Source: a virus | Direction: 5' to 3' (one strand) | Length of the DNA: 42,704 bases | Virus record (IMG/VR): IMGVR_UViG_3300018411_001112 | Span: 1-42,704 of that record | Shown here: one piece after another, positions 15,710 to 41,651 of the stretch | Layout of the letters: each line of letters opens with the position of its first letter | Position numbering within the stretch: position 1 is the first letter of the stretch | Position numbers and translations under genes: made by a program | The notes under the pieces: model-generated | Database searches by the model: none | What the model saw: only the letters and a program-made list of their open reading frames with translations | Told to the model about the DNA's origin: nothing

Positions 15710-16310
15710 TACCGCACCTCCTCTGTCTAGCCATTTCAGGTAACTTGTAAACATTTATGAGTAAATGCATAATAAAAGTAATTGCTAATTCAGCCTCTTC
15801 TTTAGTCGCCTCATCTAACTCATGTATGTACTGATTACCTAATTCTCTGATTTTGTCTACCCATGTACGATTGTGCCTCGATATATATCCTTCAGTCTCT
15901 AAATAGTTAACATACTCAATAAATCTAAGATTTGATTGAGCTCCTAAATCTGCGGATATATGCATTATCATTGTGCGAGCAATCATTATTACAGCATAAT
16001 GACATTCATTTGAAAAACACCTTCTACACTCATAATACATTTTTTGTATTCTATCAGGTACATATGGAATATCTTCGAATGGTAGGAATTGGGACTGAGG
16101 TATTATTTTCCCATCAAGCCCAATCGTAATAGGCATAAAACATTCCGGGCACTTAAATATGTGATATTTTATAGCACCTGATTCGAGATCAAATATTCTT
16201 GTGTCTGATGAAGCACGCACTCTTACGTTACAATAAGGGCAGTTTAATGTATGTTGAATAATTTCTTTAATCTTAACTTTCTCCCATTTCCACTCTTTAA
16301 TATCGAGCAT
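15699..16310 (-). CDS. DUF4145-like zinc-ribbon protein inside the Type I operon
   Basis: 203 residues. The N-terminus has two Cys pairs, LNCPYCNV and FKCPECFMP, about 30 residues apart, which would form a zinc ribbon. The remainder is helical and resembles the DUF4145/HEPN-like group: ECHYAVIMIARTMIMHISADLGA, then IRELGNQYIHELDEATKEEAE. The start ATG overlaps the hsdS stop as TAATG, and the 3' end overlaps hsdR, so it is embedded and translationally coupled within hsdMSR. Genes of this type are often found in Type I loci, but I know of no settled role; a regulatory or RNA/toxin-like function would be speculation. Some members carry a HEPN R-x4-6-H motif, which I do not see clearly here. Confidence 0.75.
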   Translation of the reverse strand: MLDIKEWKWEKVKIKEIIQHTLNCPYCNVRVRASSDTRIFDLESGAIKYHIFKCPECFMPITIGLDGKIIPQSQFLPFEDIPYVPDRIQKMYYECRRCFSNECHYAVIMIARTMIMHISADLGAQSNLRFIEYVNYLETEGYISRHNRTWVDKIRELGNQYIHELDEATKEEAELAITFIMHLLINVYKLPEMARQRRCGNGN

Positions 16311-17680
16311 TAATGATCACCGCCTTCATCAAACGGTTCATCATCTACAAATTCTTCTCCGTCTTCATATGACTCATCTGTTGCTTCCTCGACATACTCA
16401 AAGTTTGGAATTGCCACACCACGCACATCAATTTGACCTGTAACCACATCGGAAATAAGCTTTGTACGGAGCTCATGCAAAACCCCAATTTCTTGCAATA
16501 GACAATCTTTGTAATTTTGGGTCTTATGAGCATATCCACTGAGATGCTGCATGATTGCTTCCTGCTCTTTAAGAGGGGGCACAGGTAAAACAATTGTTTT
16601 GAAATCTCCAGTATATAAACGCCAAAAGCCTTCAATGATTCCTCGTACTCGAATTCGTAGCTCTCTACGGCATTTTTCACTTTTAAGAACCATTTCCCCA
16701 AAAGCAGGAATAATTTTGCTTTGATTAGGAATTAGAACAGTGTAGTCAGGACTTATAACACCCATCTGTGGGGACAAGGCGAAAACACCTAAATGTGCTT
16801 TTAATCTGTTTAGAACAAGATCATTTGTATAACATATTTTCCCACCTTGATATGATTCAGAGAGCATCCTTCTTTCATCTAGCTGATCATTTGGCACTAA
16901 GCCATATTTTTGGCTCATTGATAGATGTTGTTCTTTACCTTCAACTGAACGTTCATCTCGTTCAGAAAAAAGATATTTACATCGCAATACTTCCCAGTGT
17001 GCCGGCACTTTTCCAATCCACTCAATTCCCGAATCTTTCATGGAAACTTTGGTATCTAGTCCGGATGTAATGATATTGGAAATATGTGTCCTTTCCCTTT
17101 CTTGCAGGAGTGCAATTTCTTTTTTCTTCGCAGTAATTATTTTGTTTATTTCCGATGTTTTCCAATCAAGATATTGGACTATCTGATTTTGCTCATCGAG
17201 TGAAGGAACAAGTATTTCATGATTAATAAGATCCTTTCCAGAAAGTGTCTGTCGAACCCCTTCTCCCAGACCGTTAAATATCAATCTCTTATACCAATCA
17301 TAATACTGGTAAAAAAAATATTTCGTGTTCAATTCCGCGCGAGGCTTGAGACGTATATAAGCAGAGCTCATTATGCCCTTTTCGGGAACAAGACCAACTC
17401 GGCTAGTCGATATATTTTCCAAATCAATTAGCTTAAATACTAGCTCATTTTCATTAAATATTTGATAGGTTGCATAGTCTGATGGAGATAGCCCGATAGG
17501 TTTTTCTCCGTTGTTTCGAATCACACCGTTTAAAGTAAGTGAAAGAATATTGCTCTCGTTGTTATTTTTATTCAAAGTTTTAGGATTAGAAAAAAATCGC
17601 TTGGCTTTTTCACAAGCCCAATGGGCTGGATAATCATGATTCCATAGAATTATCGAAGGTGAATACAATGGGTATCTCAT
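16310..17680 (-). CDS. hsdS: Type I restriction specificity subunit HsdS
   Basis: 456 residues that set the bipartite DNA target of the Type I enzyme. The protein has two target recognition domains (about 1-165 and 205-375), each followed by a conserved helical spacer: SLDEQNQIVQYLDWKTSEINKI with a coiled coil of Lys, Glu and Leu, and PPLKEQEAIMQHLSGYAHK. The second domain opens with the classic IEWIGKVPAHWEVLRCKYLF. The C-terminal tail after VTGQIDVRG is very acidic, with many Glu and Asp, and is unusual in length. The ATG overlaps the hsdM stop as ATGA. Both half-sites look intact, so the system could be functional. The recognition sequence cannot be predicted by eye. Confidence 0.93.
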   Translation of the reverse strand: MRYPLYSPSIILWNHDYPAHWACEKAKRFFSNPKTLNKNNNESNILSLTLNGVIRNNGEKPIGLSPSDYATYQIFNENELVFKLIDLENISTSRVGLVPEKGIMSSAYIRLKPRAELNTKYFFYQYYDWYKRLIFNGLGEGVRQTLSGKDLINHEILVPSLDEQNQIVQYLDWKTSEINKIITAKKKEIALLQERERTHISNIITSGLDTKVSMKDSGIEWIGKVPAHWEVLRCKYLFSERDERSVEGKEQHLSMSQKYGLVPNDQLDERRMLSESYQGGKICYTNDLVLNRLKAHLGVFALSPQMGVISPDYTVLIPNQSKIIPAFGEMVLKSEKCRRELRIRVRGIIEGFWRLYTGDFKTIVLPVPPLKEQEAIMQHLSGYAHKTQNYKDCLLQEIGVLHELRTKLISDVVTGQIDVRGVAIPNFEYVEEATDESYEDGEEFVDDEPFDEGGDH

Positions 17681-19683
17681 TCTACCAACCCTCCAATAAT
17701 TTCTGCCAACATGCCATCGGTTTTGGCTTCTAGTGACTGCAGATCTTCCAAAATCTCCTGCATAGAGCGCTGCTCCAATGGTTTGTAGAAATACTTTGTA
17801 AAGCTGACTTCATAACCTATTTGAGTTTTTTTATCATCAACATAAGCATCAGGAGCATATGGGTGCACCTCGTTTTCCATGAAGGCCTTTATCCCTCCTT
17901 CGTAACAGAAGGGCACTATTTCAGTATCACGAAGGTCAACATCAGCCTCGCCTTCAACGGCTTTAGCTTCAGGATCCTTCTCAGAAATAAACGGACGCAC
18001 TTTTTTGAGCAACGCCGCTTTGAGTCCAGTTGCTTTTGTAAACACTGCCCAATCGTCGGTAGGGATACCTACAGGCAACTTAGCAATCGCTTTGTTATAC
18101 AGTTCTTCCTCCGCAGGCTTTAATTGTGCAGCTGCAATACTTCTGTTAGGAAACACACGTAGACGTAGTGGCCTATCAACAGTTATTGACCAAAAACCAA
18201 ACTCATTATTATCAAAAATGCGACTGACCTCACTTTCTTCCATCGATAGAAAAATACGAACAATCTCTGCCCTAAGCTCTGGAGTAAGTTCGCAATTTTT
18301 CTTGCCCATATTCTTTCGCAAAGGAGATTTTATTGCAGTCGCGTCAATTAATTGAATTTTACCGCGTCGACGTTCTTCTTTACTATTTGATAGTATCCAA
18401 ATATAGGTGCCAATGCCGGTGTTGTAAAACATATTTTCGGGAAGTGCAATAATAGCCTCTACTAAATCTTTTTCTATCATATAACGACGAGCATTGCTTT
18501 CGCCACTTCCAGCGTCACCAGTAAACAAAGATGAACCATTATGCACTTCTGCAATTCTACTACCCAGTGCAGTATCCTTCTTCATTTTTGACACATTGTT
18601 CAGAAGGAACAGGAGCTGCCCATCACTTGTACGAGGAATCATAGCAAGTTGTTCCCCACCTTCCAGATAAGCGTTGAATCTACTGTCGAGTATATCCTTT
18701 TTCCCGCCCATCTTGTCTGCGTCAGTTTTCCAACTTTTGCCATAAGGTGGATTAGAAAGCATGAAGTCAAACTGACGAGTTGCGTTTCCATCAACAGAGA
18801 GAGTTGAACCATATGATATATGATCCGCTTGTTCGCCCTCACCCTTCAGTAACATATCAGCTTTGCAAATTGCATAGGTTTCAGGCTGTACTTCCTGTCC
18901 AAAAAGATGAATGGATACCTGCTTGCCCCTTCTAGCTGCCAATGTTTGTAAGCGCTCCTGCGCGACAGTTAACATACCGCCGGTACCACACGCGCCATCA
19001 TAACAGGAGTATGTAGCGTCCATAACTTTATCTGCGATAGGAACAAATACAAGATCTGCCATGAGCTCTACAACATCACGAGGCGTCCAGTGTTCTCCAG
19101 CTTCCTCGTTGTTAGCCTCATTAAAACGCCTCACCAACTCCTCAAAAACAGTACCCATACTGTGATTATCCAGCGCAGGGAGACGAATCTCCGTCATTGT
19201 ATCATCTCGATAAATTGGTTTTGGACTTAGATTTATGTCAGACGAAATAAACTTTTCAATAACAGCGCCAAGGATATCTGCATCAATCATAGTCGTGATC
19301 TGATTGCGGAATTTGAACTTCTCAAGAATCTCCTGCACATTGGGCGAGAATCCATCCAGGTAGGCTTCAAAATCTGCTTTAAGGGTCTGCTTTTTTGCAC
19401 GGCTGGTCAAATCTCGCAGGAGAAACGGCGAAGCATTACAAAAGGACTGGCCAGCTGCATTGCATAGCGCTGGCCACTGGTTAGCAATCCCCGCATCATC
19501 CATCTTCTTTTTCATATTGAGTACTTCATCCTTGGTATCTTCCAACATAGCATCAAAACGGCGAATAACCGTCATAGGCAGAATAACATCACGGTATTTA
19601 CCGCGTACATATACATCACGCAGACAGTCGTCTGCAATACCCCAAATAAAACTTACTATCGCATTATGAGTTTGGTTGTCCAT
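17677..19683 (-). CDS. hsdM: Type I DNA adenine methyltransferase HsdM
   Basis: 668 residues, the methylation subunit that modifies adenine and protects host DNA. An N-terminal helical HsdM_N domain (about 1-150) is followed by EHWTPRDVVELMADL, SAM-binding motif I YDGACGTGGML (228-238) and catalytic NPPYGKSW (311-318). Length is typical of the long HsdM group. The ATG at 19683 has AAAGGTAGG upstream, and a good promoter (19731-19759) lies just ahead, so this is probably the first gene of the hsdM-hsdS-DUF4145-hsdR transcript. Nothing looks damaged. Confidence 0.95.
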   Translation of the reverse strand: MDNQTHNAIVSFIWGIADDCLRDVYVRGKYRDVILPMTVIRRFDAMLEDTKDEVLNMKKKMDDAGIANQWPALCNAAGQSFCNASPFLLRDLTSRAKKQTLKADFEAYLDGFSPNVQEILEKFKFRNQITTMIDADILGAVIEKFISSDINLSPKPIYRDDTMTEIRLPALDNHSMGTVFEELVRRFNEANNEEAGEHWTPRDVVELMADLVFVPIADKVMDATYSCYDGACGTGGMLTVAQERLQTLAARRGKQVSIHLFGQEVQPETYAICKADMLLKGEGEQADHISYGSTLSVDGNATRQFDFMLSNPPYGKSWKTDADKMGGKKDILDSRFNAYLEGGEQLAMIPRTSDGQLLFLLNNVSKMKKDTALGSRIAEVHNGSSLFTGDAGSGESNARRYMIEKDLVEAIIALPENMFYNTGIGTYIWILSNSKEERRRGKIQLIDATAIKSPLRKNMGKKNCELTPELRAEIVRIFLSMEESEVSRIFDNNEFGFWSITVDRPLRLRVFPNRSIAAAQLKPAEEELYNKAIAKLPVGIPTDDWAVFTKATGLKAALLKKVRPFISEKDPEAKAVEGEADVDLRDTEIVPFCYEGGIKAFMENEVHPYAPDAYVDDKKTQIGYEVSFTKYFYKPLEQRSMQEILEDLQSLEAKTDGMLAEIIGGLVE

Positions 19684-20853: not shown

Positions 20854-20905
20854 AGTCCCTTGATTAGTCCCTTTAGTCCCTTGTAAGGCTAATTTTTAGT
20901 CCCTT
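20854..20905. repeat. Four AGTCCCTT repeats upstream of the NBR1-Ig gene
   Basis: AGTCCCTT (AAGGGACT on the minus strand) occurs at 20854-20861, 20866-20873, 20875-20882 and 20898-20905. The last three are preceded by T, and the middle two are nine bases apart. They lie between the candidate promoter and the GTG start, in the 5' leader of the leftward transcript, so they could be operator sites or RNA-binding sites. Confidence 0.6.
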
Positions 20906-20985: not shown

Positions 20986-21247
20986 TCACATCGTTAGGTA
21001 ATAAACTATCCTTACCGACTATGTTGTTTATAAAAAGTCATAAACTCACTTTTCAAGTCACAAAAAATGCTCTTGTCATTTGAAATCACCTCAATGTGCA
21101 TCCACTGATCACGGATGGTTCAGCGCAGCGAGGCGAACAACCAAATATATAACAGCTGACTACTGAACAGGAAGCTGCAATCCGAAACGGAGAAATCTGT
21201 GTTGGACTGCGGTCGGGCTTTTATTGCCTTTTTCAGCTGAGCAGCTC

Positions 21248-21288: not shown

Positions 21289-21816
21289 ATGTCAAACAGT
21301 GCAAACCAGAACCAAACCAACGAACGCAAAATCTACCTCAAGGACCTGCACCAGTGGGTGCCCGTCAGCAAAACCGACTATGACAACTATTACCGCGATA
21401 TCAATGCCTATCGCCGCAGGCAACAGGAGCACGGGCGCTGTGTCTGCCCAGCAAACAAGCGCTACCTCTGCGACATGGACTGCTGGACCTGCCGTTTTCA
21501 CAAGGCCGGTGATGAGCTTTCCCTTGATTACACCGTGACAGACGACGACGGCAACGAAAAGAGCTGGCTCGATGACTTGGCGGACGATGCTCCCAGCGCT
21601 CAGGCCATCTTAGAGGATCGCGAACTACTGGATACCCTTATCTGCAAATTGAACGAGCTTGATCCCGACGGTCGCCGAATTTGTGAGCTACTGCTTCAGG
21701 AAAAGTCCGAACGAGAGATCGCTGCTATCATGGGCATTTCTCGGCAATCCACCATCAACTACAAGAAGAAAAAGGCGTTTGACGCTTTGCGGGAGCTTCT
21801 TCGCGACTACATCTAA
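21289..21816 (+). CDS. Sigma-70 region 4-like regulator
   Basis: 175 residues. The C-terminus is a sigma region 4 helix-turn-helix: LNELDPDGRRICELLLQEKSEREIAAIMG, then SRQSTINYKKKKAFDALREL. The N-terminal half has clustered Cys (CVCPANKRYLCDMDCWTC) that may bind metal. It lacks sigma region 2, so it is unlikely to act as a complete sigma factor; it may be a transcription activator or partner. Similar proteins open the early region of many clostridial prophages and conjugative elements. Its ribosome-binding site is buried in the hairpin just upstream, and a strong terminator follows. Confidence 0.8.
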   Translation: MSNSANQNQTNERKIYLKDLHQWVPVSKTDYDNYYRDINAYRRRQQEHGRCVCPANKRYLCDMDCWTCRFHKAGDELSLDYTVTDDDGNEKSWLDDLADDAPSAQAILEDRELLDTLICKLNELDPDGRRICELLLQEKSEREIAAIMGISRQSTINYKKKKAFDALRELLRDYI

Positions 21817-26821: not shown

Positions 26822-27958
26822 ATGATGGGTTTTGTAGAAAACGGGATGGTCTTTGATGATAATAATAACCTTATTGGTATCATTGATCGAAATGTCACTG
26901 AATCATGCATTTTAAATCAGGCAGCCCTTTCCCAAGATGCGAATACTTATCGCGAATTAAGTCGTTCTATTCGCGAGATGAATGATGCAGATTTCCTTCG
27001 TTTCATGAGAACATCGGTTACCGTCATTCACGACATTCCAGCAAAGGACGTATTAAACGGCATTACAAGGCGTGCAAAAGAGAACAACATCTCTAAGGAT
27101 AACAGCGCGTTGAATGCGATTGGAATGGTTTTTCTTCCAGAAGATGATAACGCAAAGTTACTTCAGAACCTGAACAAGAGTAAGCCAAGCGACTCTATCA
27201 ACCTGGACTTTGACTCTGTAATGGCATTGACCGAGCTCTGGTCGCGATCGGCAAAGGATGTTGAAGGCATTCCCTCTGACTTATTCTTTGCAAATACCAT
27301 TCCATTACAGGATTGCTGTATCAACATTCAGAATAAAAGCAGTTCCTATGATCTCTATCGTTTCGTTGTACACTCAGATTTTGAAGATCGTATCAGAGAC
27401 GCTGGTGAATGGGATTATGCAGAAGTAGCTAACCTTATTCATCAGCGTGGTAACGCCGAGCTTATTTTTCCGATTCTCACTGTTCATGGTGTGAACCGGC
27501 TTATGGTTGGAGAAATCGGATATCGCAGCCTTCCGAAATCAGCACGAGACAATCTTTCAAAGCATGTCACCATGCAAGCTATATTATCCATGGCAACATT
27601 TGTGATTCAAGCATGGTATGGAATCCAGATAGCGCTTCTTCATCCTGTAGTAAAATCGGTATTCAATAAACCAAGGACAGAAACTTTAAAGGCATCAAAA
27701 TCCAAACATAACAAAAAAAGAAGAACAGCCTATATCAAGCGTCATGTCATAAATGCAGAGGATATCAGAATTGCATTAACCTCTGCCAATATCGAAAGGT
27801 ATACCCTTGTCTGGTATGTCATTGGACATTGGAGAACTTACAGGAGTGGCCGCAAAGTATTTGTGCAGCCATATTGGAAAGGTCCTCTACGCATCATAAA
27901 GCAAAATATCGATGACAGAGAACGAGTTATCATCACAGGAGGTGCACATAATGCGTGA
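26822..27958 (+). CDS. Unrecognised phage gene, AT-richer than its neighbours
   Basis: 378 residues. I do not recognise a family. The first ~60 residues include GMVFDDNNNLIGIIDRNVTES; the middle is mostly helical with no enzyme motif. The C-terminus, after a very basic stretch (SKSKHNKKRRTAYIKRH), has TLVWYVIGHWRTYRSGRK followed by VFVQPYWKGPLR. A GHWR-Y-SG-PYW-G pattern like this recurs in phage proteins, but I cannot tie it to a function. AAGGAGG lies 11 bases before the ATG. Codon use is clearly more AT-rich than in the genes on each side, so this may be a late insertion. It overlaps the primase gene by eight bases. Confidence 0.8.
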   Translation: MMGFVENGMVFDDNNNLIGIIDRNVTESCILNQAALSQDANTYRELSRSIREMNDADFLRFMRTSVTVIHDIPAKDVLNGITRRAKENNISKDNSALNAIGMVFLPEDDNAKLLQNLNKSKPSDSINLDFDSVMALTELWSRSAKDVEGIPSDLFFANTIPLQDCCINIQNKSSSYDLYRFVVHSDFEDRIRDAGEWDYAEVANLIHQRGNAELIFPILTVHGVNRLMVGEIGYRSLPKSARDNLSKHVTMQAILSMATFVIQAWYGIQIALLHPVVKSVFNKPRTETLKASKSKHNKKRRTAYIKRHVINAEDIRIALTSANIERYTLVWYVIGHWRTYRSGRKVFVQPYWKGPLRIIKQNIDDRERVIITGGAHNA

Positions 27959-30281
27959 TTTATCCATTGCCTATGGCAACAGCTGTTTTGCTAAGACATG
28001 GCCAAATAAAACCGTCACATGGACTGATTTGTGTAGCAGGCTATCGGTAACTATCAGGACAACGGAATCTGTCGAAGAATACCCAAAACTCAAAAAATCT
28101 GACAGAGAAAAGGTCAAAGACAAGGGCGGCTTTGTTGGTGGCCAACTCAAAAATAATCGCCGCAAAATCGAAACCGTCGTCTGTCGTTCAATGCTGACGA
28201 TGGACTTGGATCAAGCTGAAGTTGGTTTTATTGAAAGATTCTGCGCGACATGTAAATTTGCTGCCGCACTCTATACGACACATGGTCACATTCCTGAAAA
28301 GCCAAGAGTGAGAATCATCATACCATTTACAAGAGATACGTCCGTTGATGAGTATGCAGCTATTGCAAGGTATTATGCTGCAGAATGGGGCATCGACCAG
28401 TTTGACGAATGCTCCTACCGACCGAACCAGTTAATGTACTGGCCGACTACTCCCGCAAATGGCGAGTATATATTCAAGCGCATAGACGGTGCCTGGCTTG
28501 ATCCAGACGTATATCTTGCTGCACACCCCAATTGGAAAGAGTGCTCGCTACTGCCGACATCTTCTCGGGAAAGTGCTGTCCGTGAAGCTAGCCAGAAACC
28601 ACAAGATGACCCTCTTGGCAAATCAGGTATCATTGGTGCGTTCTGTCGTTCCTATACCGTGGAGACTGCGATTGACACTTTTCTCTCAGATGTATATGCA
28701 CCTTCCGCAATGGCTGGTCGTTACGATTACATCCCTGCCGACAGCAGTGCTGGCGTTGTCATTTACGACGACAAATATGCCTACAGCCACCACGCCTCTG
28801 ATCCTGCTTACGGAAAGCTGCTCAATGCCTTTGACCTTGTACGCATACACAAATTCGGTGATGACGATGAGAAGTCCAGCTTCAAAAACATGTGCGGCTT
28901 CGCGCTCAAGGATGAGGCTGTTGCTGCACTACTTTTGGAGGAGCGCCGTCAGTCTGCTTCCGAAGATTTCATGCCCGGTGAGACTTGGGCTTCCAGGCTA
29001 ACACGCACAAAAGCCGGTGATGTGGAAAACACTCTCGGCAACCTGCTGCTGATCATGAAAAATGATGAGGCCCTTTCGCAAATCCGATATAACCGGCTCG
29101 CCAACCAAATCTATGCCGAGAATCTGCCTTGGGCGCATACTCACCCAGCTTGGCGGGACGCGGATACAGCCCAGCTCGTGGCTTACGTCGACACCAACTA
29201 TGGAGAGTTCAGCGCCCGAAACTACGAGCTTGCTCTTACCAAAGTGTCAGATGACAGGGCCTATCATCCAGTTCGTGAATACCTGATGGCACTGGAATGG
29301 GACGGCATACCTCGTGACGAGACTGTCTTCATCGACTTTCTCGGAGCTGAGGATACTCCCTACGTTAGAGCGGTTACTCGAAAGACACTCGCTGCTGGAG
29401 CTGGCCGTATCCTCGCACCCGGCATCAAGTTTGATACCATCCCAGTTATTATCGGCGGTCAGGGCATCGGCAAGTCCACCATGCTCGCCAAGCTGGGAAA
29501 ACAATGGTACTCCGACAGCCTTTCCATCTCTGATATGAAAGATAAAACGGCACCAGAAAAACTTCAGGGCAACTGGCTGCTAGAGCTTTCTGAGCTCGCT
29601 GGCATCAAGAAAATGGACGTGGAAACCGTGAAGTCCTTTGCCAGCCGAGTTGATGATAAGTATCGCCCTTCTTATGGCAGAGTCGTCGAAAGCCATCCAC
29701 GCCAGTGCATTATCATCGGTTCCACCAATAGCGATGGTGGTTTTCTTCGAGACGTGACCGGTAACAGACGCTTCTGGCCTATCAACGTAACCGGTGAAGG
29801 CACAAGACGACCTTGGGATATTACCGAATACGAAGTCGACCAGATATGGGCCGAGGCGGTAGCCAACTTTAATGCTGGCGAGGAACTGTTCCTGAAAGGC
29901 GCTGAAGCAGAGGCCGCCGCAGATGCACAGCGTGACGCGATGGAAACCGACGACCGCGAAGGTTTGGTTTCTGCATTTCTTGACACCTTACTCCCTGAGG
30001 ATTGGGACACCACTGACATTTACCGTAGACAGGAGTTTTTCCGCGATCCCGACGATCCTACAAGACCGGTGGGTACCGTGCGCAGAACACAGGTCAGCAA
30101 TATTGAGATTTGGTGTGAGTGCTTTGGTCGTTCGAGGGATTCCATCAAGAAATCTGACTCCTATGAGATCGAGGCCATTCTTCGTAGCATCGGCAATTGG
30201 GAAAAGTACTCCGGCAATAAGACCGGCAAGCGCATTATCCCCCTTTATGGTGTTCAACGTATCTATCTGAGGTCGGAATAA
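27951..30281 (+). CDS. VapE-family phage primase/helicase
   Basis: 776 residues from the ATG at 27951, with GGAGG eight bases upstream. The N-terminal ~200 residues look like a primase-polymerase domain: MLTMDLDQAEV, TTHGHIPEKPRVRIIIPF, SYRPNQLMYWPTT. The C-terminal part is the virulence-associated E helicase/ATPase: Walker A IIGGQGIGKSTML, a Walker B-like LLELSELAGI, and IIIGSTNSDGGFLRDVTGNRRFWPI. VapE-type proteins start phage or satellite replication by binding and opening an origin. A region dense in TTGCCCA/TGGGCAA repeats follows the gene directly, as expected for its target. Confidence 0.92.
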   Translation: MRDLSIAYGNSCFAKTWPNKTVTWTDLCSRLSVTIRTTESVEEYPKLKKSDREKVKDKGGFVGGQLKNNRRKIETVVCRSMLTMDLDQAEVGFIERFCATCKFAAALYTTHGHIPEKPRVRIIIPFTRDTSVDEYAAIARYYAAEWGIDQFDECSYRPNQLMYWPTTPANGEYIFKRIDGAWLDPDVYLAAHPNWKECSLLPTSSRESAVREASQKPQDDPLGKSGIIGAFCRSYTVETAIDTFLSDVYAPSAMAGRYDYIPADSSAGVVIYDDKYAYSHHASDPAYGKLLNAFDLVRIHKFGDDDEKSSFKNMCGFALKDEAVAALLLEERRQSASEDFMPGETWASRLTRTKAGDVENTLGNLLLIMKNDEALSQIRYNRLANQIYAENLPWAHTHPAWRDADTAQLVAYVDTNYGEFSARNYELALTKVSDDRAYHPVREYLMALEWDGIPRDETVFIDFLGAEDTPYVRAVTRKTLAAGAGRILAPGIKFDTIPVIIGGQGIGKSTMLAKLGKQWYSDSLSISDMKDKTAPEKLQGNWLLELSELAGIKKMDVETVKSFASRVDDKYRPSYGRVVESHPRQCIIIGSTNSDGGFLRDVTGNRRFWPINVTGEGTRRPWDITEYEVDQIWAEAVANFNAGEELFLKGAEAEAAADAQRDAMETDDREGLVSAFLDTLLPEDWDTTDIYRRQEFFRDPDDPTRPVGTVRRTQVSNIEIWCECFGRSRDSIKKSDSYEIEAILRSIGNWEKYSGNKTGKRIIPLYGVQRIYLRSE

Positions 30282-30495
30282 TTGCCCAACCTTGCCGATT
30301 CGCACTTCGGCACAAACCATGGGCAAGGCTTGCAGCCCCCGAAATTACTATAAAAGCTCGTTGCCTTGCCGGTATTGCCCATAAACTCCTACTCCTTTTC
30401 AATTCATTAAAAATGTAGTACAGCCTGAGCGTATATATGCGCGCGTAGGATTTATAGGAACAATGAGCAAATGGGCAATCATCGGCAATGGGCAA
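30282..30495. other. Iteron-like TTGCCCA/TGGGCAA region, candidate replication origin
   Basis: TTGCCCA occurs at 30282-30288 and 30375-30381; TGGGCAA at 30320-30326, 30472-30478 and 30489-30495. Related TTGCCG/CGGCAA units lie between. The two ends mirror each other: TTGCCCAACCTTGCCGAT at the left and ATCGGCAATGGGCAA at the right. The centre is AT-rich (about 30394-30417) and includes GTATATATGCGCGCG. Initiator-encoding phages and satellites often place the origin beside the primase gene, so this is a good candidate, though unproven. Confidence 0.5.
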
Positions 30496-30512: not shown

Positions 30513-30794
30513 ATGAAAGAGAAAATCGTTGAGCAAAAACTGGTGAAAACAGTGAAGGACATGGGTGGCATTGCACCAAAGTTCACGAGTCCTGGATTTG
30601 ATGGCATGCCCGACCGTATCGTTCTTCTACCTGGCGGTCATATGGCTTTCGTTGAAGTTAAGGCTCTCGGCGAAAAGCCCAGACCACTTCAGCTGGCAAG
30701 GCACAAATTACTTCGCGGGCTTGGCTTCAAGGTTTATGTACTTGATGACGAGCAGCAGATTGGAGGGCTTCTTGATGAAATACGAACCACATAA
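30513..30794 (+). CDS. VRR-NUC domain nuclease
   Basis: 93 residues, a complete minimal VRR-NUC domain (PD-(D/E)XK superfamily). Key residues are in GFDGMPDRIVLLPGG and MAFVEVKALGEKPRPLQ, giving D...ExK, then QLARHKLLRGLGFKVYVLDD. Stand-alone VRR-NUC proteins of phages cut DNA junctions or flaps and are usually found next to a SNF2 helicase, as here. The ATG at 30513 has GGAG six bases upstream. The stop overlaps the helicase start, so the two are translationally coupled. Confidence 0.93.
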   Translation: MKEKIVEQKLVKTVKDMGGIAPKFTSPGFDGMPDRIVLLPGGHMAFVEVKALGEKPRPLQLARHKLLRGLGFKVYVLDDEQQIGGLLDEIRTT

Positions 30795-32197: not shown

Positions 32198-32425
32198 ATG
32201 GACCCTTATCAAGAATTAGCAAACGCCATTGTTATGCAAGCAGTCAAGGATTATCGAACCTCTCTTCTTCATTCGAAGAAGCGTCCGGATAACAAAGGCT
32301 ACCAAATTGAAGTGTCATCGTTAGAGCGGTTCTTCCGTTCCGGTTGGTTTGGAGAACTCACAAGTCTGAATGCCGAGTACCTCATTCGAAGAGTTAACGA
32401 GGAGGTGCAAAGGAATGACCGCTAA
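32198..32425 (+). CDS. Small conserved-looking phage protein
   Basis: 75 residues: MDPYQELANAIVMQAVKDYR at the N-terminus, then KKRPDNKGYQIEVSSLERFFRSGWFGELT and a helical end. It looks helical and soluble, with no motif I can name. GGAGG lies eight bases upstream, and the 3' end overlaps the next gene by 11 bases. Similar short proteins with SLERFFRSxWF precede DUF1492-type regulators in related prophages, which suggests a linked role in late transcription, but that is inference. Confidence 0.7.
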   Translation: MDPYQELANAIVMQAVKDYRTSLLHSKKRPDNKGYQIEVSSLERFFRSGWFGELTSLNAEYLIRRVNEEVQRNDR

Positions 32426-33968: not shown

Positions 33969-35132
33969 ATGGCGAAATATAAAACTTCTGAAAGTGTATG
34001 CAAGGGTCACCCGGATAAGCTCTGCGACCTGATTGCAGACAGCATTCTTGATGCGTGTCTTCGCAAAGATAAATCTTCCCGTGTGGCCTGCGAGGTCATG
34101 GCGACAAAGGGCAAAATCATCGTAGCGGGCGAAATCACCTGCTCGAAAAAAGTAGACATCCGCTGGGTGGTCCGTAGAGTTCTTGAGGAGGTCGGCTACA
34201 ATCCGTGGAAGTTCATTGTGTTTGTATTCGTCCACCAGCAAAGCAAGGATATCGCTGGTGGTGTGGATCAGGCGCTAGAATCTCGAGCTGGAGATACCTC
34301 TTGGTATTCCATGCTCGGCGCTGGCGACCAAGGTACTATTTACGGCTATGCCACAGATGAGACGGTAGAAAAACTTCCGCTCCCTCTCGTATTTGCTCAT
34401 GGCATTTGTCAAAAGATCGATAGCACCATGAAAAATGGCGTCATCAAAGGCATTGGTCCTGATGGCAAAGCCCAGGTCACTGTCGAGTATGAGGATGACA
34501 AGCCCAAGCGCATCAAAACGATTATTGTTTCTGTGCAGCACCGCGCTGATAAGGATTTGGAGATTCTCCGCAGTGAGATCATCTCCCAAGTGCTGTGGCC
34601 GGTGTTCGAGAAGTTCCCATTTGACGATGCGACTGAAATCCTCATCAATCCCTCCGGCCGTTTTGTCGAGGGAGGACCTGCAGCTGACACCGGTTTGACC
34701 GGTCGAAAGATAATGGTCGATAGCTATGGCGGACTTGCTGCTCATGGAGGCGGTGCGTTCTCTGGAAAAGACCCGACGAAGGTTGACCGCTCCGGTGCCT
34801 ACATGGCACGGGCTATCGCAAAGAACATCGTCAGGTGTGGTTATGCCAAACGCTGTCAGGTGGCTATCTCCTATGCCATCGGTAAGGCTGACCCCGTTGC
34901 GGTTGAAATTGATACCTTCGGTACGGGTACTGTTTCTGATGAGATTCTTCGCAAAGCGGTCCTCGAGGTTTTTAACCTGCGTCCTGCGGCAATCATCGAA
35001 ACGCTGAGTTTGCGAGATCCCATTTACGCAGATACAGCAACCTATGGCCATTTCAGTGGAACACTTTCTCGCTGGGAATGGCTGGACCGTTATATAGAAT
35101 TACGAGAGGCGGTAAAAAAATATGCTGATTGA
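33969..35132 (+). CDS. metK: Phage-encoded S-adenosylmethionine synthetase
   Basis: 387 residues, close to the cellular enzyme's length. MetK makes SAM from ATP and methionine. Visible signatures: SESVCKGHPDKLCDLIAD (catalytic His14, Asp16), GAGDQGTIYGYATDE, NPSGRFVEGGPAADTGLTGR, and GGGAFSGKDPTKVDRSGAY (phosphate-binding loop with Lys). The end, TYGHFSG, is a divergent form of the usual YGHFGR. The gene starts one base after the small terminase and overlaps the ParB-methylase by 11 bases, so it is a true member of the packaging operon. It probably supplies methyl donor for phage DNA modification. Codon use matches its phage neighbours, which argues against a recent capture. Confidence 0.94.
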   Translation: MAKYKTSESVCKGHPDKLCDLIADSILDACLRKDKSSRVACEVMATKGKIIVAGEITCSKKVDIRWVVRRVLEEVGYNPWKFIVFVFVHQQSKDIAGGVDQALESRAGDTSWYSMLGAGDQGTIYGYATDETVEKLPLPLVFAHGICQKIDSTMKNGVIKGIGPDGKAQVTVEYEDDKPKRIKTIIVSVQHRADKDLEILRSEIISQVLWPVFEKFPFDDATEILINPSGRFVEGGPAADTGLTGRKIMVDSYGGLAAHGGGAFSGKDPTKVDRSGAYMARAIAKNIVRCGYAKRCQVAISYAIGKADPVAVEIDTFGTGTVSDEILRKAVLEVFNLRPAAIIETLSLRDPIYADTATYGHFSGTLSRWEWLDRYIELREAVKKYAD

Positions 35133-36366
35133 GAAAAAGAATACCGCCGAGCTCCTGCCTGCGGACTACAATCCCCGCAAGGACTTAAGGCCCGGCGATC
35201 CGGAATACGATAAGCTGAAGCGCTCAATTGAACAGTTCGGATACGTCGAGCCGGTCATCTGGAATAAGGTGACCGGCTGTGTTGTAGGTGGGCACCAGCG
35301 TTTGAAGGTGCTCATCGACATGGGCATCACCGAAGTCGAGTGCGTAGTGGTCGAGATGGATGTCGAGAAAGAAAAGGCACTCAACATCGCGCTGAACAAG
35401 ATTTCCGGCGAATGGGACAAAGAAAAACTAGCTCTGCTCATTGCAGATTTGCAAGGCGCGGACTTCGATGTATCGCTCACAGGCTTTGATCCCTCCGAAC
35501 TGGACGATCTGTTTAAGGATAGCATCAAAGACGGCATCCACGATGATGATTTTGATGTGGAAGCAGAGCTTAGGGAACCTCGCATCACCAAGCTCGGTGA
35601 TGTCTGGACCCTTGGTCGGCACCGACTGGTATGTGGCGACAGCACCAAGAAGGACACCTTTGATTTGCTGATGGCCGGTGCCAAAGCCAATCTCGCGATC
35701 ACCGATCCGCCTTACAACGTCAACTATGAAGGCAGCGCTGGTAAAATCAAAAACGACAATATGGGTAACGACGCCTTCTACCACTTTCTGCTCGATGCCT
35801 TTACAAACACCGAAGCGGTTATGGCGGATGATGCCAGCATCTACGTATTCCACGCCGACACCGAAGGGCTGAATTTCAGGAGAGCCTTTGTGGATGCCGG
35901 TTTTTATTTATCTGGTTGCTGCATCTGGAAGAAGCAGTCGTTAGTTCTGGGGCGCTCTCCATACCAATGGCAACACGAGCCTGTGCTCTACGGTTGGAAG
36001 AAAACCGGAAAGCATCAGTGGTACACCGGCCGGAAGGAAACCACCATCTGGGAGTTCGACAAGCCTAAGAAAAATGGCGATCACCCGACCATGAAGCCGG
36101 TCCCGCTCTTGGCGTATCCGATTATGAACAGCAGCATGAGTAACACCATGGTGCTTGATCCCTTTGGCGGCAGCGGTTCAACGCTCATCGCCTGCGAACA
36201 GTCTGACCGCTCCTGCTATACCATTGAGCTTGATGAGAAGTTCTGCGATGTTATCGTCAAGCGCTACATCGAACAGGTCGGCACGGCTGATAGGGTTTCT
36301 GTCCAGCGCGATGGTTTGCTCTACTCCTATGCAGAGGTGACAGCCACCAAGGACAGCCATGCCTGA
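35122..36366 (+). CDS. ParB-like domain fused to a DNA methyltransferase
   Basis: 414 residues. Residues 1 to about 95 form a ParB/Srx-like domain (YNPRKDLR, SIEQFGYVEPVIWN, VVGGHQRLKVL). After a linker comes a beta-class DNA methyltransferase: RHRLVCGDSTK, catalytic DPPYNVNY at 195-202, and SAM motif I VLDPFGGSGSTLIACEQ near the C-terminus. The target base is adenine N6 or cytosine N4. Such fusions are common next to phage terminases and protect phage DNA from restriction. It is translationally coupled to the SAM synthetase. No cognate endonuclease is seen, so it should be a solitary phage methylase. Confidence 0.94.
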   Translation: MLIEKKNTAELLPADYNPRKDLRPGDPEYDKLKRSIEQFGYVEPVIWNKVTGCVVGGHQRLKVLIDMGITEVECVVVEMDVEKEKALNIALNKISGEWDKEKLALLIADLQGADFDVSLTGFDPSELDDLFKDSIKDGIHDDDFDVEAELREPRITKLGDVWTLGRHRLVCGDSTKKDTFDLLMAGAKANLAITDPPYNVNYEGSAGKIKNDNMGNDAFYHFLLDAFTNTEAVMADDASIYVFHADTEGLNFRRAFVDAGFYLSGCCIWKKQSLVLGRSPYQWQHEPVLYGWKKTGKHQWYTGRKETTIWEFDKPKKNGDHPTMKPVPLLAYPIMNSSMSNTMVLDPFGGSGSTLIACEQSDRSCYTIELDEKFCDVIVKRYIEQVGTADRVSVQRDGLLYSYAEVTATKDSHA

Positions 36367-36497: not shown

Positions 36498-37253
36498 ATG
36501 GAAATCAAGTACAACGTAACTGGACCCGACCGCAAGCGACTGGTACAGGCCATCGCGATGATTCTCGAAAGTGACACCAAGTACCTCGGCGTTCCATCCT
36601 GTGCTTATCAGGTGGACAACTTCACCATCAACAAGGATGGCATCCTCTCATTCGACGACCACGCCAACAGCGGCGCGGCTGAGCAGCTTATCGAACGCCT
36701 TTGCGATATGGGCTTTGAAGCTGAGATTGAGGAAGTCACAGATGCCCTTTGCATGGAGCTTCCGCTGAAAGACACGACAGAGGCGGCGATCGACAACCTG
36801 CGCAGGATGGTGGACAGTAAAGCGACGCTCATTAAAAAAGCACTCGGTGCTGATAGCTTGGAAATTGAGGTCACCGAGGAGCGTATCCGCTTCCCTTGGT
36901 TCGATCGCATTCCGGAGCCTGAGGTCATCAGTGCAACTACTCATTTCCTTAGGCATATGCTTGATGCAGCGAAGAGCCATAAGCGTGTGACTGCCAAGGA
37001 AAAAGAAACAGACAATGAGAAATATGCCTTCCGCTGCTTCCTCCTTCGACTCGGCTTCATTGGTGATGAGTTCAAGGAAACGCGCCGGACGCTTCTTCGG
37101 AACCTGACCGGTAGTGCTGCATTTCGAACGGGAGCCAAGAAAGGCTTCAGTACAGAGGACCTCGACGCCGCTACCGACGACCCCGCTGTAGTAGAAGCGG
37201 TAAATGCCCTGCTGAATGGAAAGGAGGCAACTGATGATGAGATTTCCGAATAA
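36498..37253 (+). CDS. 'Virulence-related' phage protein of unknown function
   Basis: 251 residues. It begins EIKYNVTGPDRKRLVQAI, with a repeated sandwich-like N-terminal half, and ends in a helical part (FRCFLLRLGFIGDEFKETRRTLLRNLTGSAAFRTG). I recognise it as a family often labelled virulence-related in clostridial phages and conjugative elements. That label has no experimental basis I know of. AGGAGG sits eight bases before the ATG at 36498. It is the first gene behind promoter-like element A and overlaps the DUF4314 gene by 20 bases. Confidence 0.75.
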   Translation: MEIKYNVTGPDRKRLVQAIAMILESDTKYLGVPSCAYQVDNFTINKDGILSFDDHANSGAAEQLIERLCDMGFEAEIEEVTDALCMELPLKDTTEAAIDNLRRMVDSKATLIKKALGADSLEIEVTEERIRFPWFDRIPEPEVISATTHFLRHMLDAAKSHKRVTAKEKETDNEKYAFRCFLLRLGFIGDEFKETRRTLLRNLTGSAAFRTGAKKGFSTEDLDAATDDPAVVEAVNALLNGKEATDDEISE

Positions 37254-37993: not shown

Positions 37994-38052
37994 GGAACAT
38001 GAGCCAATCGGCTCTGTTCCTCGTCATGCAGCCAATATGGGCTGTATTTTTT
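37994..38052 (+). terminator. Two successive hairpins upstream of the large terminase
   Basis: First, GGAACA-GAGCC (37994-38005) pairs with GGCTC-TGTTCC (38009-38020), with one bulged T. Second, CAGCC (38029-38033) pairs with GGCTG (38040-38044) and is followed by TATTTTTTAT. The second has the form of a modest intrinsic terminator. Because it lies directly before the large terminase, it may regulate packaging gene expression. Confidence 0.5.
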
Positions 38053-39681
38053 ATGCCCTGCAAAAGGAGGCGACGGCGTATCAGAAAATTGAAGAAATAC
38101 TCTCCAACCCGATTTAAAGCATCGGATTCAATCTATGACAAGGCTCTGGCCGATTACGCCGTGTCCTTTATTGAGGCGCTCTCCCACACCAAGGGCACCT
38201 GGGCCGGTAAGCCTTTTGAGCTGATTGACTGGCAGGAACGGATTATTCGAGACATCTTTGGCACCATTAAGCCCAATGGCTATCGGCAGTTCAACACAGC
38301 GTATGTGGAAATCCCAAAGAAGATGGGTAAATCAGAGCTCGCTGCTGCGGTCGCCCTACTGCTGACCTGTGGTGACAACGAGGAACGCGCCGAGGTCTAC
38401 GGTTGCGCCGCTGATCGCAATCAGGCCTCTATCGTTTTTAACGTTGCTGCGGATATGGTGCGGATGTGCCCGGCGCTCGCAAAACGAGTCAAGATCCTTG
38501 ATTCCATGAAACGGCTTGTTTATTTACCGACTGGAAGCACTTATCAGGTACTGTCTGCCGACGTTGGCAACAAGCACGGTTTCAATACCCATGGCGTGGT
38601 ATTCGACGAACTGCATACTCAGCCTAACCGAAAGCTCTACGATGTTATGACCAAAGGTAGCGGTGATGCGAGGATGCAGCCGCTTTATTTTTTGATCACG
38701 ACCGCCGGAGACAACCAGAACAGCATCTGTTGGGAGGTCCATCAGAAGGCCCTGGATATCATTGACGGCAGAAAAAACGACCCGACCTTCTATCCGGTCA
38801 TATATGGTGCAGCGCAAGAGGACGACTGGACTGATCCAAAGGTCTGGAAAAAAGCCAATCCCTCCCTCGGTATTACCGTCGGCTTAGATAAGGTCAAAGC
38901 GGCCTTTGAGTCTGCCCGCCAGAATCCCGCAGAGGAGAACAGCTTCAGGCAGCTCCGCTTGAACCAATGGGTCAAGCAGGCTGTACGCTGGATGCCGATG
39001 GACAAATGGGATGCCTGCGCTTTTGCGGTCGATCCGGAAGCCTTACGAGGCCGGGTTTGCTACGGTGGTCTTGACCTTTCCTCATCCACCGACATTACTG
39101 CCTTTGTTTTGGTATTCCCACCGCTGGACGAGGATGACAAGTATGTCGTGCTTCCGTTCTTCTGGATACCGGAGGACAACATCGATTTGCGTGTGCGGCG
39201 TGACCATGTGAATTACGATGTCTGGAAAAAGCAAGGCTACCTTTTAACTACCGAAGGCAATGTGGTCCACTATGGCTTCATCGAGAGCTTTATTGAGGAG
39301 CTGGGTACTAAATACAATATTCGCGAGATCGCCTTTGACCGGTGGGGCGCTGTACAGATGGTCCAGAACCTTGAGGGCATGGGCTTTACAGTTGTTCCGT
39401 TCGGTCAGGGCTTCAAGGATATGAGTCCGCCGACCAAGGAACTCATGAAGCTAACCTTAGAACAGAGGCTTGCCCACGGCGGTCATCCGGTCCTTCGCTG
39501 GATGATGGATAACATCTACATCCGTACCGATCCGGCAGGCAACATCAAAGCGGACAAAGAGAAATCCACCGAGAAAATCGACGGCGCTGTCGCCACCATT
39601 ATGGCGCTTGATCGGGCGATTCGATGCGGCAATGAAAGTGGCACTTCGGTCTATGATGATCGTGGCCTGCTTGTTTTTTAG
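38053..39681 (+). CDS. terL: Terminase large subunit
   Basis: 542 residues from the ATG at 38053. The ATPase half has NTAYVEIPKKMGKSELAAAVA (Walker A-like KKMGKS), a Walker B-like GVVFDELHTQP and LYFLITTAGD (coupling motif). The nuclease half has GGLDLSSSTDITAFVLVF, IREIAFDRWGA, and a final Asp in KIDGAVATIMALDRA. This is the HK97/phage terminase that pumps DNA into the prohead and cuts it. Its start is unclear: AAAGGAGG lies at 38062-38069, inside the frame and downstream of the ATG, and the codon at the right distance is ATC. Homologues starting near RKLKKYSPTRFKAS would be about 11 residues shorter. Confidence 0.93.
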   Translation: MPCKRRRRRIRKLKKYSPTRFKASDSIYDKALADYAVSFIEALSHTKGTWAGKPFELIDWQERIIRDIFGTIKPNGYRQFNTAYVEIPKKMGKSELAAAVALLLTCGDNEERAEVYGCAADRNQASIVFNVAADMVRMCPALAKRVKILDSMKRLVYLPTGSTYQVLSADVGNKHGFNTHGVVFDELHTQPNRKLYDVMTKGSGDARMQPLYFLITTAGDNQNSICWEVHQKALDIIDGRKNDPTFYPVIYGAAQEDDWTDPKVWKKANPSLGITVGLDKVKAAFESARQNPAEENSFRQLRLNQWVKQAVRWMPMDKWDACAFAVDPEALRGRVCYGGLDLSSSTDITAFVLVFPPLDEDDKYVVLPFFWIPEDNIDLRVRRDHVNYDVWKKQGYLLTTEGNVVHYGFIESFIEELGTKYNIREIAFDRWGAVQMVQNLEGMGFTVVPFGQGFKDMSPPTKELMKLTLEQRLAHGGHPVLRWMMDNIYIRTDPAGNIKADKEKSTEKIDGAVATIMALDRAIRCGNESGTSVYDDRGLLVF

Positions 39682-39693
39682 TAAAGGAGAGTG

Positions 39694-40956
39694 ATGTCTA
39701 TGGGAATACTTCAAGGAATATTCAAGGCGCGTGACAAGCCTCAAGATGCCCTCGGTGGCAGCCGCTACAGCTTCTTTTTCGGAAGCACCAGCGCGGGAAA
39801 GCCGGTCAATGAACAGACGGCCATGCAAATGACAGCAGTATACAGCTGCGTGAGGATATTGTCTGAAACATTGGCGGGGCTTCCGCTCCATATATATCAA
39901 TACAATGATTCCGGAGGCAAGGAAAAACACCTCAAACACCCACTATACAAGCTGCTTCATGATGAACCAAATCCTGAGATGACTTCCTTTGCGTTTAGAG
40001 AAACGCTGATGAGTCATCTTTTATTATGGGGGAATGCCTACGCACAGATCATTAGAAACGCACGTGGCGAGGTTGTTGCACTTTATCCGCTGATGCCAAA
40101 CAAAATGACAGTCGATCGTGATTCAAACGGTCGGCTTTTCTATTTGTACCAGCGCGGCAACGAGGACACACCCTCTCTTGGCAAGGACAGTCAAGTCTAC
40201 CTGGCACCATCCGATGTTTTGCATATTCCTGGCCTCGGCTTTGATGGTCTGGTCGGTTACTCTCCCATCGCAATGGCGAAAAATGCCGTGGGACTAGCCA
40301 TTGCCACTGAGGAATACGGTGCGAAGTTCTTCGCTAACGGAGCGGCTCCGGGCGGAGTGTTGGAACACCCTGGCACCATCAAGGACCCACAGAAGATTAA
40401 GGAATCCTGGAACGCTGCCTATCAGGGCAGCGGCAATTCTCACCGAGTGGCCGTTCTCGAGGAAGGCATGAAGTATCAGCCCATCGGGATCTCACCGGAA
40501 CAGGCGCAGTTTCTGGAGACGAGAAAATTCCAGATCAATGAAATCGCCCGAATCTTCAGGGTGCCACCTCACATGCTAGCCGACCTTGAGAAATCGTCCT
40601 TCTCTAACATCGAACAGCAATCACTTGAGTTCGTGAAATACACACTTGACCCTTGGGTAGTGCGCTGGGAACAGTCCATGTGTCGCGCCCTGCTCATGGA
40701 TAGTGAAAAGCCGAAGCTGTTCATTAAGTTCAATGTAGATGGGCTGCTTCGCGGAGATTATGTGAGCCGGATGAGTGGTTACGCCACCGCACGTCAGAAC
40801 GGCTGGATGAGCGCCAATGACATCCGGGAGCTTGAGAACCTGGACCGCATCCCGGCAGAGCTCGGTGGCGACCTCTACCTCATCAACGGCGCCATGACCA
40901 AACTTCAGGACGCGGGTGCGTTCGCAAATATAAAAGAAACGGAGGAAACCGAATGA
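39694..40956 (+). CDS. HK97-type phage portal protein
   Basis: 420 residues (418 if started at the ATG at 39700, which is about as likely; AGGAG lies at 39685-39689). Portal-family markers are AMQMTAVYSCVRILSETLAGLPLHIY, LLWGNAYAQIIRN, VLHIPGLGFDGLVGYSPI and FQINEIARIFRVPPHML. The portal forms the dodecameric ring through which DNA enters the capsid. It follows terL by a dozen bases and ends in an ATGA overlap with the protease gene. The protein appears complete. Confidence 0.95.
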   Translation: MSMGILQGIFKARDKPQDALGGSRYSFFFGSTSAGKPVNEQTAMQMTAVYSCVRILSETLAGLPLHIYQYNDSGGKEKHLKHPLYKLLHDEPNPEMTSFAFRETLMSHLLLWGNAYAQIIRNARGEVVALYPLMPNKMTVDRDSNGRLFYLYQRGNEDTPSLGKDSQVYLAPSDVLHIPGLGFDGLVGYSPIAMAKNAVGLAIATEEYGAKFFANGAAPGGVLEHPGTIKDPQKIKESWNAAYQGSGNSHRVAVLEEGMKYQPIGISPEQAQFLETRKFQINEIARIFRVPPHMLADLEKSSFSNIEQQSLEFVKYTLDPWVVRWEQSMCRALLMDSEKPKLFIKFNVDGLLRGDYVSRMSGYATARQNGWMSANDIRELENLDRIPAELGGDLYLINGAMTKLQDAGAFANIKETEETE

Positions 40957-41651
40957 AGAAATTCTGGAACTGGGCACGGGATGATAATTCCGGTGTTCGA
41001 ACACTCTACCTTGACGGCGTGATTGCCGAAGAGTCGTGGTTTGATGATGATGTCACCCCTAAGGCATTTAAAGCAGAGCTTACTGCTGGTGAAGGTGACC
41101 TTGTTATATGGCTCAACTCTCCCGGCGGAGATTGTATTGCGGCAAGTCAGATCTACACCATGCTTATGGATTACAAAGGCAAGGTTACCGTGAAGATCGA
41201 TGGCATTGCAGCATCTGCTGCATCCGTAATTGCTATGGCTGGAACGACCGTACTGATGGCACCGACTGCCCTCATGATGGTGCATAACCCGCTGACTGTT
41301 GCCATTGGTGACAGTGAGGAAATGCAAAAGGCCATCTCAATGCTCTCGGAGGTTAAGGAAAGTATCATTAACGCCTACGAGATCAAAACAGGACAGTCAC
41401 GGGCAAAGCTATCACACCTGATGGATGCGGAAACCTGGCTCAATGCTAAGAAAGCCATCGAGCTTGGTTTTGCAGACGGCATCTTGGAGGACGAAAAGAA
41501 GCGATCACAGACCGATGATTTCACCTATGCCTTCAGCCGCAGAGCCGTTACCAACTCTCTGCTGGGCAAGGTAAAGCCCAGGCTGCCTAAACAACAAACG
41601 GGTACACCGATTGAGTCGCTGGAGAAGCGGCTCTCTTTAATTCAACACTAA
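40953..41651 (+). CDS. ClpP-like head maturation protease
   Basis: 232 residues of the ClpP/crotonase fold. The catalytic triad can be seen: Ser88 in GIAASAASVIAMAG, His111 in LMMVHNPLT and Asp in LMDAETWLNAKKAIELGFADGI. The oxyanion strand INSPGGD-type sequence is WLNSPGGDCIAASQIY. In HK97-like phages this protease trims the capsid protein and scaffold region during prohead maturation. It sits between portal and capsid genes as expected and is coupled to the portal gene by ATGA. Confidence 0.95.
   Translation: MKKFWNWARDDNSGVRTLYLDGVIAEESWFDDDVTPKAFKAELTAGEGDLVIWLNSPGGDCIAASQIYTMLMDYKGKVTVKIDGIAASAASVIAMAGTTVLMAPTALMMVHNPLTVAIGDSEEMQKAISMLSEVKESIINAYEIKTGQSRAKLSHLMDAETWLNAKKAIELGFADGILEDEKKRSQTDDFTYAFSRRAVTNSLLGKVKPRLPKQQTGTPIESLEKRLSLIQH

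Follow-up and report, generated by a model that had tools for sequence, protein, structure and literature searches.

The origins of phage-inducible chromosomal islands (PICI) are situated directly 3' of the initiator gene and consist of two sets of iterons flanking an AT-rich region (PMC6092414). SaPI origins have been likened to that of SV40, with oppositely oriented repeats proposed to load two head-to-head hexamers (PMC9894130), and SaPI Rep proteins bind the downstream iteron origin via their C-terminal domain (PMC7581432). The C-terminal domain of the SCCmec Cch2 helicase also binds short repeats downstream of its own gene (PMC7581432). Streptococcus thermophilus phage Sfi21 has an annotated origin of 302 bp (AF115103, 34487-34784; Foley et al. 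1998) with inverted repeats (GTAACT/AGTTAC iterons; GTAACTAA/TTAGTTAC) around an AT-rich core. No paper was found in a literature search for VapE, iterons and phage origins together.

The window, i.e., the whole stretch of DNA analysed (42,704 nt of IMG/VR record IMGVR_UViG_3300018411_001112), contains a VapE-family helicase gene (27912-30281), a VRR-NUC gene starting at 30513, and, separating the two, a 231-bp gap filled by repeats. Judged from sequence comparison and position, this element is very probably the replication origin of a temperate phage, with the adjacent VapE as its initiator. The features of the locus are the following:

27912-30281, strand +, VapE-family helicase-primase of 789 aa, proposed initiator (PF05272, phrog_256)
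30018-30278, strand +, winged-helix domain at the VapE C-terminus (residues 703-789), proposed to bind the iterons (AlphaFold model, co-variation)
30198-30272, strand +, wing strands, residues 763-787, with candidate specificity residues Y766, K773, I775, V781, and L786
30282-30512, no strand, whole intergenic element, candidate replication origin (comparison and position)
30282-30298, strand +, outer left iterons TTGCCCA (30282-30288) and TTGCCGA (30292-30298)
30320-30326, strand -, left iteron TGGGCAA
30361-30381, strand +, inner left iterons TTGCC (30361), TTGCCGG (30366-30372), and TTGCCCA (30375-30381)
30382-30471, no strand, AT-richer centre of 90 bp between the iteron sets, proposed unwinding region (AT profile)
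30440-30459, strand +, conserved core box CGCGCGTAGGATTTATAGGA (a CGCG..TATAGG-like box is found family-wide)
30472-30495, strand -, right iterons TGGGCAA (30472-30478), TCGGCAA (30482-30488), and TGGGCAA (30489-30495)
30513-30794, strand +, VRR-NUC nuclease gene (weak match to PF08774; phrog_93 endonuclease)

An SNF2-type helicase gene comes after the VRR-NUC gene, and genes for large terminase, portal, and head protease were found at 37999-41651, so the record represents a full temperate prophage. Satellites are without capsid and large terminase genes of their own, and the record is hence not a phage-inducible chromosomal island. The layout of initiator plus origin, which the earlier note had compared with that of satellites such as SaPIs, matches the plan published for SaPI and PICI origins (PMC6092414, PMC7581432, and PMC9894130). 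The left half (1-20850) has a lower G+C content (33-45%), genes on the minus strand, and a type I restriction-modification set (HsdR 12746-15754, HsdS 16310-17680, HsdM 17677-19683); it is probably host flank, with an abrupt switch to phage at about 20.9 kb. Beside the junction of this low-GC part with the phage early genes, four copies of AGTCCCTT/AAGGGACT are located within about 50 bases (20854-20905) and possibly represent an operator or an end feature. A DUF2800 RNA (Rfam RF02960) was recognized as a clear match of 136.5 bits at 21086-21243 (+), where the phage early region starts. None of the window ORFs checked was identified as an integrase. A 414-aa ORF at 35122-36366 joins a ParB-like domain to a DNA methyltransferase (phrog_498) and is followed by an amidoligase-like ORF at 36498-37253.

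The repeats claimed in the earlier note, in non-coding DNA and with ends inverted relative to each other, were all found at 30282-30495, and the block fills the space between the VapE stop at 30281 and the VRR-NUC start. TTGCCCA/TGGGCAA is present in five exact copies at 30282 (+), 30320 (-), 30375 (+), 30472 (-), and 30489 (-); its TTGCCG relatives are at 30292, 30366, and 30482, and a shortened TTGCC is at 30361. Outer and inner ends are opposite in orientation, the right iterons being turned against the inner left set. The AT-rich centre, also part of that claim, was confirmed in a weaker form: AT is raised to a maximum of 73% at 30387-30416, compared with about 50% for the phage, which is only moderate. 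Counted over the whole window, TTGCCCA occurs 12 times with 6.6 copies expected, and the seven copies outside the element correspond to the background level. It is the tightest-clustered 7-mer of the window; at least five copies of some 7-mer within 215 nt were reached by four of 60 dinucleotide shuffles, and for this reason the case from the window alone is modest and borderline. Moderately supported by the window itself, the repeat case becomes strong once relatives are compared. The element DNA gave no match when searched directly against annotated phages. Three copies of CGGCAA are present at 30190-30229 inside the last VapE codons, in the segment encoding the proposed specificity wing, so that iteron-like sites may extend into the vapE gene.

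In searches with VapE, viral contigs contributed 80 loci and bacterial genomes 76, among the latter a Dethiobacter MAG with a 99% identical VapE; after four further viral scans, the VapE C-terminus was readable at 347 loci in total. In most of the approximately 350 VapE relatives examined, a non-coding stretch of like plan is located between VapE and VRR-NUC. Its order is iterons, an AT-rich stretch often starting with CTATATAG, a CGCGCGTATAGGAA-like box, and iterons again. The CGCG..TATAGG-like core box was found in 104 of 139 non-redundant elements. The innermost iteron pair is inverted in 56 of the 65 elements scored for iterons on both sides (p=2e-9), and the inner iteron-to-iteron distance has a median of 102 bp across elements. 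The iteron unit varies by phage (TTGCCSA, TTGTCC, TTGTTCC, TTGTCA, TTGTGTC, TTGTAAG, TTGTAGG, and TTGTCT, and in other phages TTTGGAGC, TGTTGCAT, TGTTACT, and CGTCCCTT, among others), and TTGCCCA is thus one among many units used at the position 3' of VapE. Repeat density was compared in the 51 phages for which 14-20 kb of sequence was available, and the unit counted was selected for its enrichment in the element. At the median, the best unit occurs 15 times per kb within the element and roughly 0.5 times per kb (0.57) outside it; a stretch of equal density was found elsewhere in just two of the 51 phages, the element being the densest in the other 49.

The family was also retrieved independently, by the 17-base core box alone (TACGCGCGTATAGGRAA) searched against 2.9 million viral contigs. 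Twenty of the 21 contigs obtained have the box beside VapE/VRR-NUC or a D5-type helicase. VapE and/or VRR-NUC are at the expected distances in 17 of the 21 contigs, VapE being lost at the contig end in two. In L410 and in L425 and L426, which are alike, a D5_N/DUF5906/Pox_D5 helicase adjoins the core box and the phages have iterons of their own; the D5 gene was confirmed by profile in L410 and L425. The palindromic core box is thus common to phages with D5-type helicases as well (L410:1679; L425:2608, CTATACGCGCGTATAG; L426:11478), and it may be recognized by something shared by several SF3-type initiators, or by the host. Near the core box at L428:12967, none of VapE, VRR-NUC, and D5 helicase was recognized. 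In Mogibacterium-like genomes (L136-L145, L148, L154, L157, and L158), the helicase half of VapE stands alone and no VRR-NUC gene was detected after it. Remnants of TGTTCC repeats are present in some of these loci, e.g., L136, which are possibly decayed or domesticated origins.

The fourfold-site GC skew in the 51 phages is about zero over 10 kb upstream of the element, rises to +0.145 in the first 2 kb downstream, and stays positive to 10 kb downstream. The genes flanking the element are co-directional, and the change in composition is therefore not due to gene orientation. Stratified by amino acid, the skew difference is +0.068 and positive in 38 of the 51 phages (p=1e-4), which are not fully independent of one another. 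Earlier, the skew of VapE had been compared with that of the helicase ORF downstream, and the same direction of change was obtained in 51 of 58 loci; no difference was found between the two halves of VapE in this 58-locus test. The step in the window itself is small (+0.02), without a clear GC-skew signal, so only the family average is used for calling the origin; as such an average, the change of strand composition in co-directional genes taken to mark a bidirectional origin was found.

VapE of the window was recognized by profile as PF05272 (E=2.5e-71) and phrog_256, 'DNA helicase' (E=9e-293). Its residues from about 343 to 789 match PDB entry 7pds, 'PriRep1 with dsDNA', by sequence and by fold. 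This entry, in which the molecule is named 'Similar to D. nodosus vapE', is the sole significant PDB sequence match (profile E=7e-110) and also the best fold match (E=1.5e-36, TM 0.76-0.78 on the target, 31-32% identity). PriRep1 is the initiator of SaPIs. The AlphaFold model of VapE has a mean pLDDT of 86.9, with mostly 81-91 in the winged-helix segment, and the predicted order at the C-terminus is H703-711, E727-729, H730-737, H747-760, E763-765, E773-776, and E780-787. All five candidate specificity residues are in the wing of the predicted winged helix; the codon of V781 is at 30252-30254.

The iteron unit switches at least 44 times on the tree of VapE bodies. Co-variation of the repeats with VapE in homologues, envisaged in the earlier note, was indeed found, and specifically with the C-terminal wing; the winged-helix domain is the only part of VapE whose identity strongly tracks iteron similarity. 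The partial correlation with iteron similarity is about zero for VapE residues 1-350; some parts of the helicase have intermediate values, and the highest value, 0.31, is reached at the very C-terminal end. Inside the C-terminal domain, residues 738-757 have no signal (-0.004) and residues 758-789 have 0.09. In 248 loci, pairs with a body identity of at least 0.90 have a mean C-terminal identity of 0.96 with matching iterons and 0.76 with differing iterons. The C-terminal effect, which is also present in partial correlation, is clear at body identities of at least 0.7 and weaker below 0.5, and in the bins 0.50-0.70 no C-terminal difference was found between same-iteron and different-iteron pairs. 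From these comparisons, iteron identity appears to follow mainly the last 30 or so residues of VapE, the predicted wing.

Near-isogenic natural pairs, with VapE bodies 99-100% identical, show the same at single loci, wing and iterons being exchanged jointly. In L311 and L313, VapE is identical to about residue 750, and the 11 substitutions are all at 752-801 (local numbering); their iterons are unrelated (TGTTACT and CGTCCCTT), and DNA identity returns to 93-98% past the element. Together with L322, these staphylococcal-type prophages represent three near-identical VapE bodies with three different cassettes of C-terminus plus iteron, as if origin incompatibility groups were swapped. Seven of 12 substitutions between L104 and L105 fall in the last 45 aligned positions, and L030 and L037, with bodies 99% identical, differ by R781L in the wing and by TTGTCC replaced by TTGTCA as iteron.

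The excess of mismatches in different-iteron pairs is greatest at V781, Y766, K773, and I775, with L786 also high, and among the columns tested, residue 781 has the top mutual information with iteron class (1.86 bits; next column 1.38), these specificity residues being chosen after the data were seen. Loci with TTGTCC have R773 in 20 of 20 and R781 in 17 of 20, those with TTGTCA have Q or L at 781 in 10 of 10, and those with TTGTTCC have K or P at 781 in 40 of 43. In phylogenetically independent pairs taken on a FastTree of VapE residues 16-735, the counts are about 9:0 for TTGTCC with R781, about 13:0 for TTGTTCC with K/P781, and about 12:0 for TTGTCN with R773. The iteron classes come from simple counts of patterns, several of them being weak, e.g., the L243-L250 group called TTGCCSA; as this class is mixed, only V/I781 with K773 is claimed, for its clear members. 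Ranking columns by mutual information normalized to entropy was rejected because lineage markers came out on top in place of wing residues; the evidence for the wing is the raw mutual information, the matched-pair excess, and the independent pairs.

As the VapE C-terminus adjoins the element, some of this co-variation could be recombination linkage, and in the swap pairs the replaced DNA block is in fact contiguous over the VapE 3' end and the element. An origin whose iterons are recognized by another protein, with linkage as the source of the co-variation, is nevertheless improbable. The VRR-NUC gene, across the element from VapE, is equally close and served as linkage control: in the 25 loci with VapE, VRR-NUC, and helicase all aligned, its correlation with iteron identity is -0.05 (raw), whereas the C-terminal value of VapE is 0.26, reached by eight of 2000 label permutations. 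The signal inside the C-terminal domain is moreover confined to the wing, about 10-18 independent pairs repeat the same residue-iteron matches, and both SaPI Rep and Cch2 use C-terminal domains (PMC7581432).

Very improbable is an operator by which a phage regulator, possibly VapE, controls the VRR-NUC/helicase part of the early operon, with replication starting elsewhere. The element does precede a gene, its short inverted repeats are typical of operators, and regulators are encoded nearby (a sigma-like ORF at 21289 and a phrog_36 regulator at 32370), but a promoter scan of the element found no sigma-70-like site, the co-variation is with the VapE wing and not with the controlled gene, and neither the composition step nor the match to the annotated Sfi21 origin is predicted by an operator. 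Hardly credible is a structured RNA or transcription attenuation by RNA hairpins of the inverted repeats: the strand folds better than its shuffles (-76 against -62 kcal/mol, z=-3.2), but hairpins are expected automatically because the iterons are inverted, the unit is also present as direct repeats, which do not pair, no Rfam match to the element was obtained even at E=1, and in nine close relatives the consensus covariation term of +0.24 gave no support and a double change of any kind occurred in only two of 21 pairs, i.e., neither conserved compensatory stems nor a curated family was found.

All three explanations are less likely than an origin with VapE as initiator. The candidate phage origin beside VapE, as put forward in the earlier note, is supported by the relatives, in which the motif is sparse outside the element, by the wing co-variation, and by the published SaPI/PICI plan. 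The anatomy of the element, its conservation, its co-variation with the VapE wing, and the composition step of the family are best read as a SaPI/PICI-type origin that would be bound by the VapE C-terminus. VapE hexamers would bind the TTGCCSA iterons via the C-terminal winged-helix domain, the contact being made by wing residues around 766-786. The mirror-image iteron sets would place two hexamers face to face across a centre of about 90-100 bp, and this centre would melt around the AT-rich stretch and the CGCG..TATAGG box. Both hexamers would then unwind outward, and the replication proteins of the phage itself would come after.

It is more probable than not that VapE-family phages carry an evolvable origin-recognition cassette, wing code and wing-iteron swaps included, in which a few wing residues (766, 773, 775, 781, and 786) would read the iteron in a partly decipherable way. 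The code proposed as part of this reading is R773 with R781 for TTGTCC, R773 with Q/L781 for TTGTCA, K/P781 for TTGTTCC, and K773 with V/I781 for TTGCCSA. Swaps between otherwise identical phages look as if replicon incompatibility, or escape from satellites or decoy origins, drove the diversification. The element makes a probable origin recognizable from sequence in a large group of temperate phages, from Firmicutes and some Actinobacteria, in which, Sfi21-like phages aside, no mapped start of replication was found. Near-isogenic natural pairs and a residue-level code bear on how replicative helicases that load themselves switch their specificity from one origin to another, and such a recognition code is within reach of short DNA duplexes and a domain of about 90 residues.

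Compared with the known systems, the SaPI/PICI replicon (pri-rep-ori) shares with the locus the start of the element at the stop codon of the helicase gene (VapE here and likewise in the relatives), two iteron sets flanking an AT-rich region, though AT-richness is moderate in the window, and a helicase region homologous to PriRep1 (7pds). Unlike it, the elements described here belong to full temperate phages, which have packaging genes and are not satellites; they are followed by VRR-NUC and SNF2 helicase genes and carry the CGCG..TATAGG box. The Sfi21 origin is likewise non-coding, directly 3' of a helicase gene, and has inverted iterons on either side of an AT-rich core; its initiator, however, is a D5/DUF5906-type helicase without the VapE domain, its iteron is AGTTAC, and its core contains simple (AT)-rich repeats. 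SCCmec Cch2, whose putative origin rests on in vitro evidence only, is similar in the binding of short repeats downstream of the gene by a helicase C-terminal domain, but the helicase is of D5_N/Primase_C type and the repeats are three direct copies of AAGTG. SV40 large T antigen and papillomavirus E1 are also helicase initiators with oppositely oriented repeats and proposed head-to-head hexamers (PMC9894130), but their DNA-binding domain is N-terminal and the origin sequence is unrelated to the element. The kind of initiator and origin is thus a known one, SaPI/PICI-like and here in a phage setting, while the swapping of cassettes in nature and the partial, unexpectedly readable code of recognition are new.
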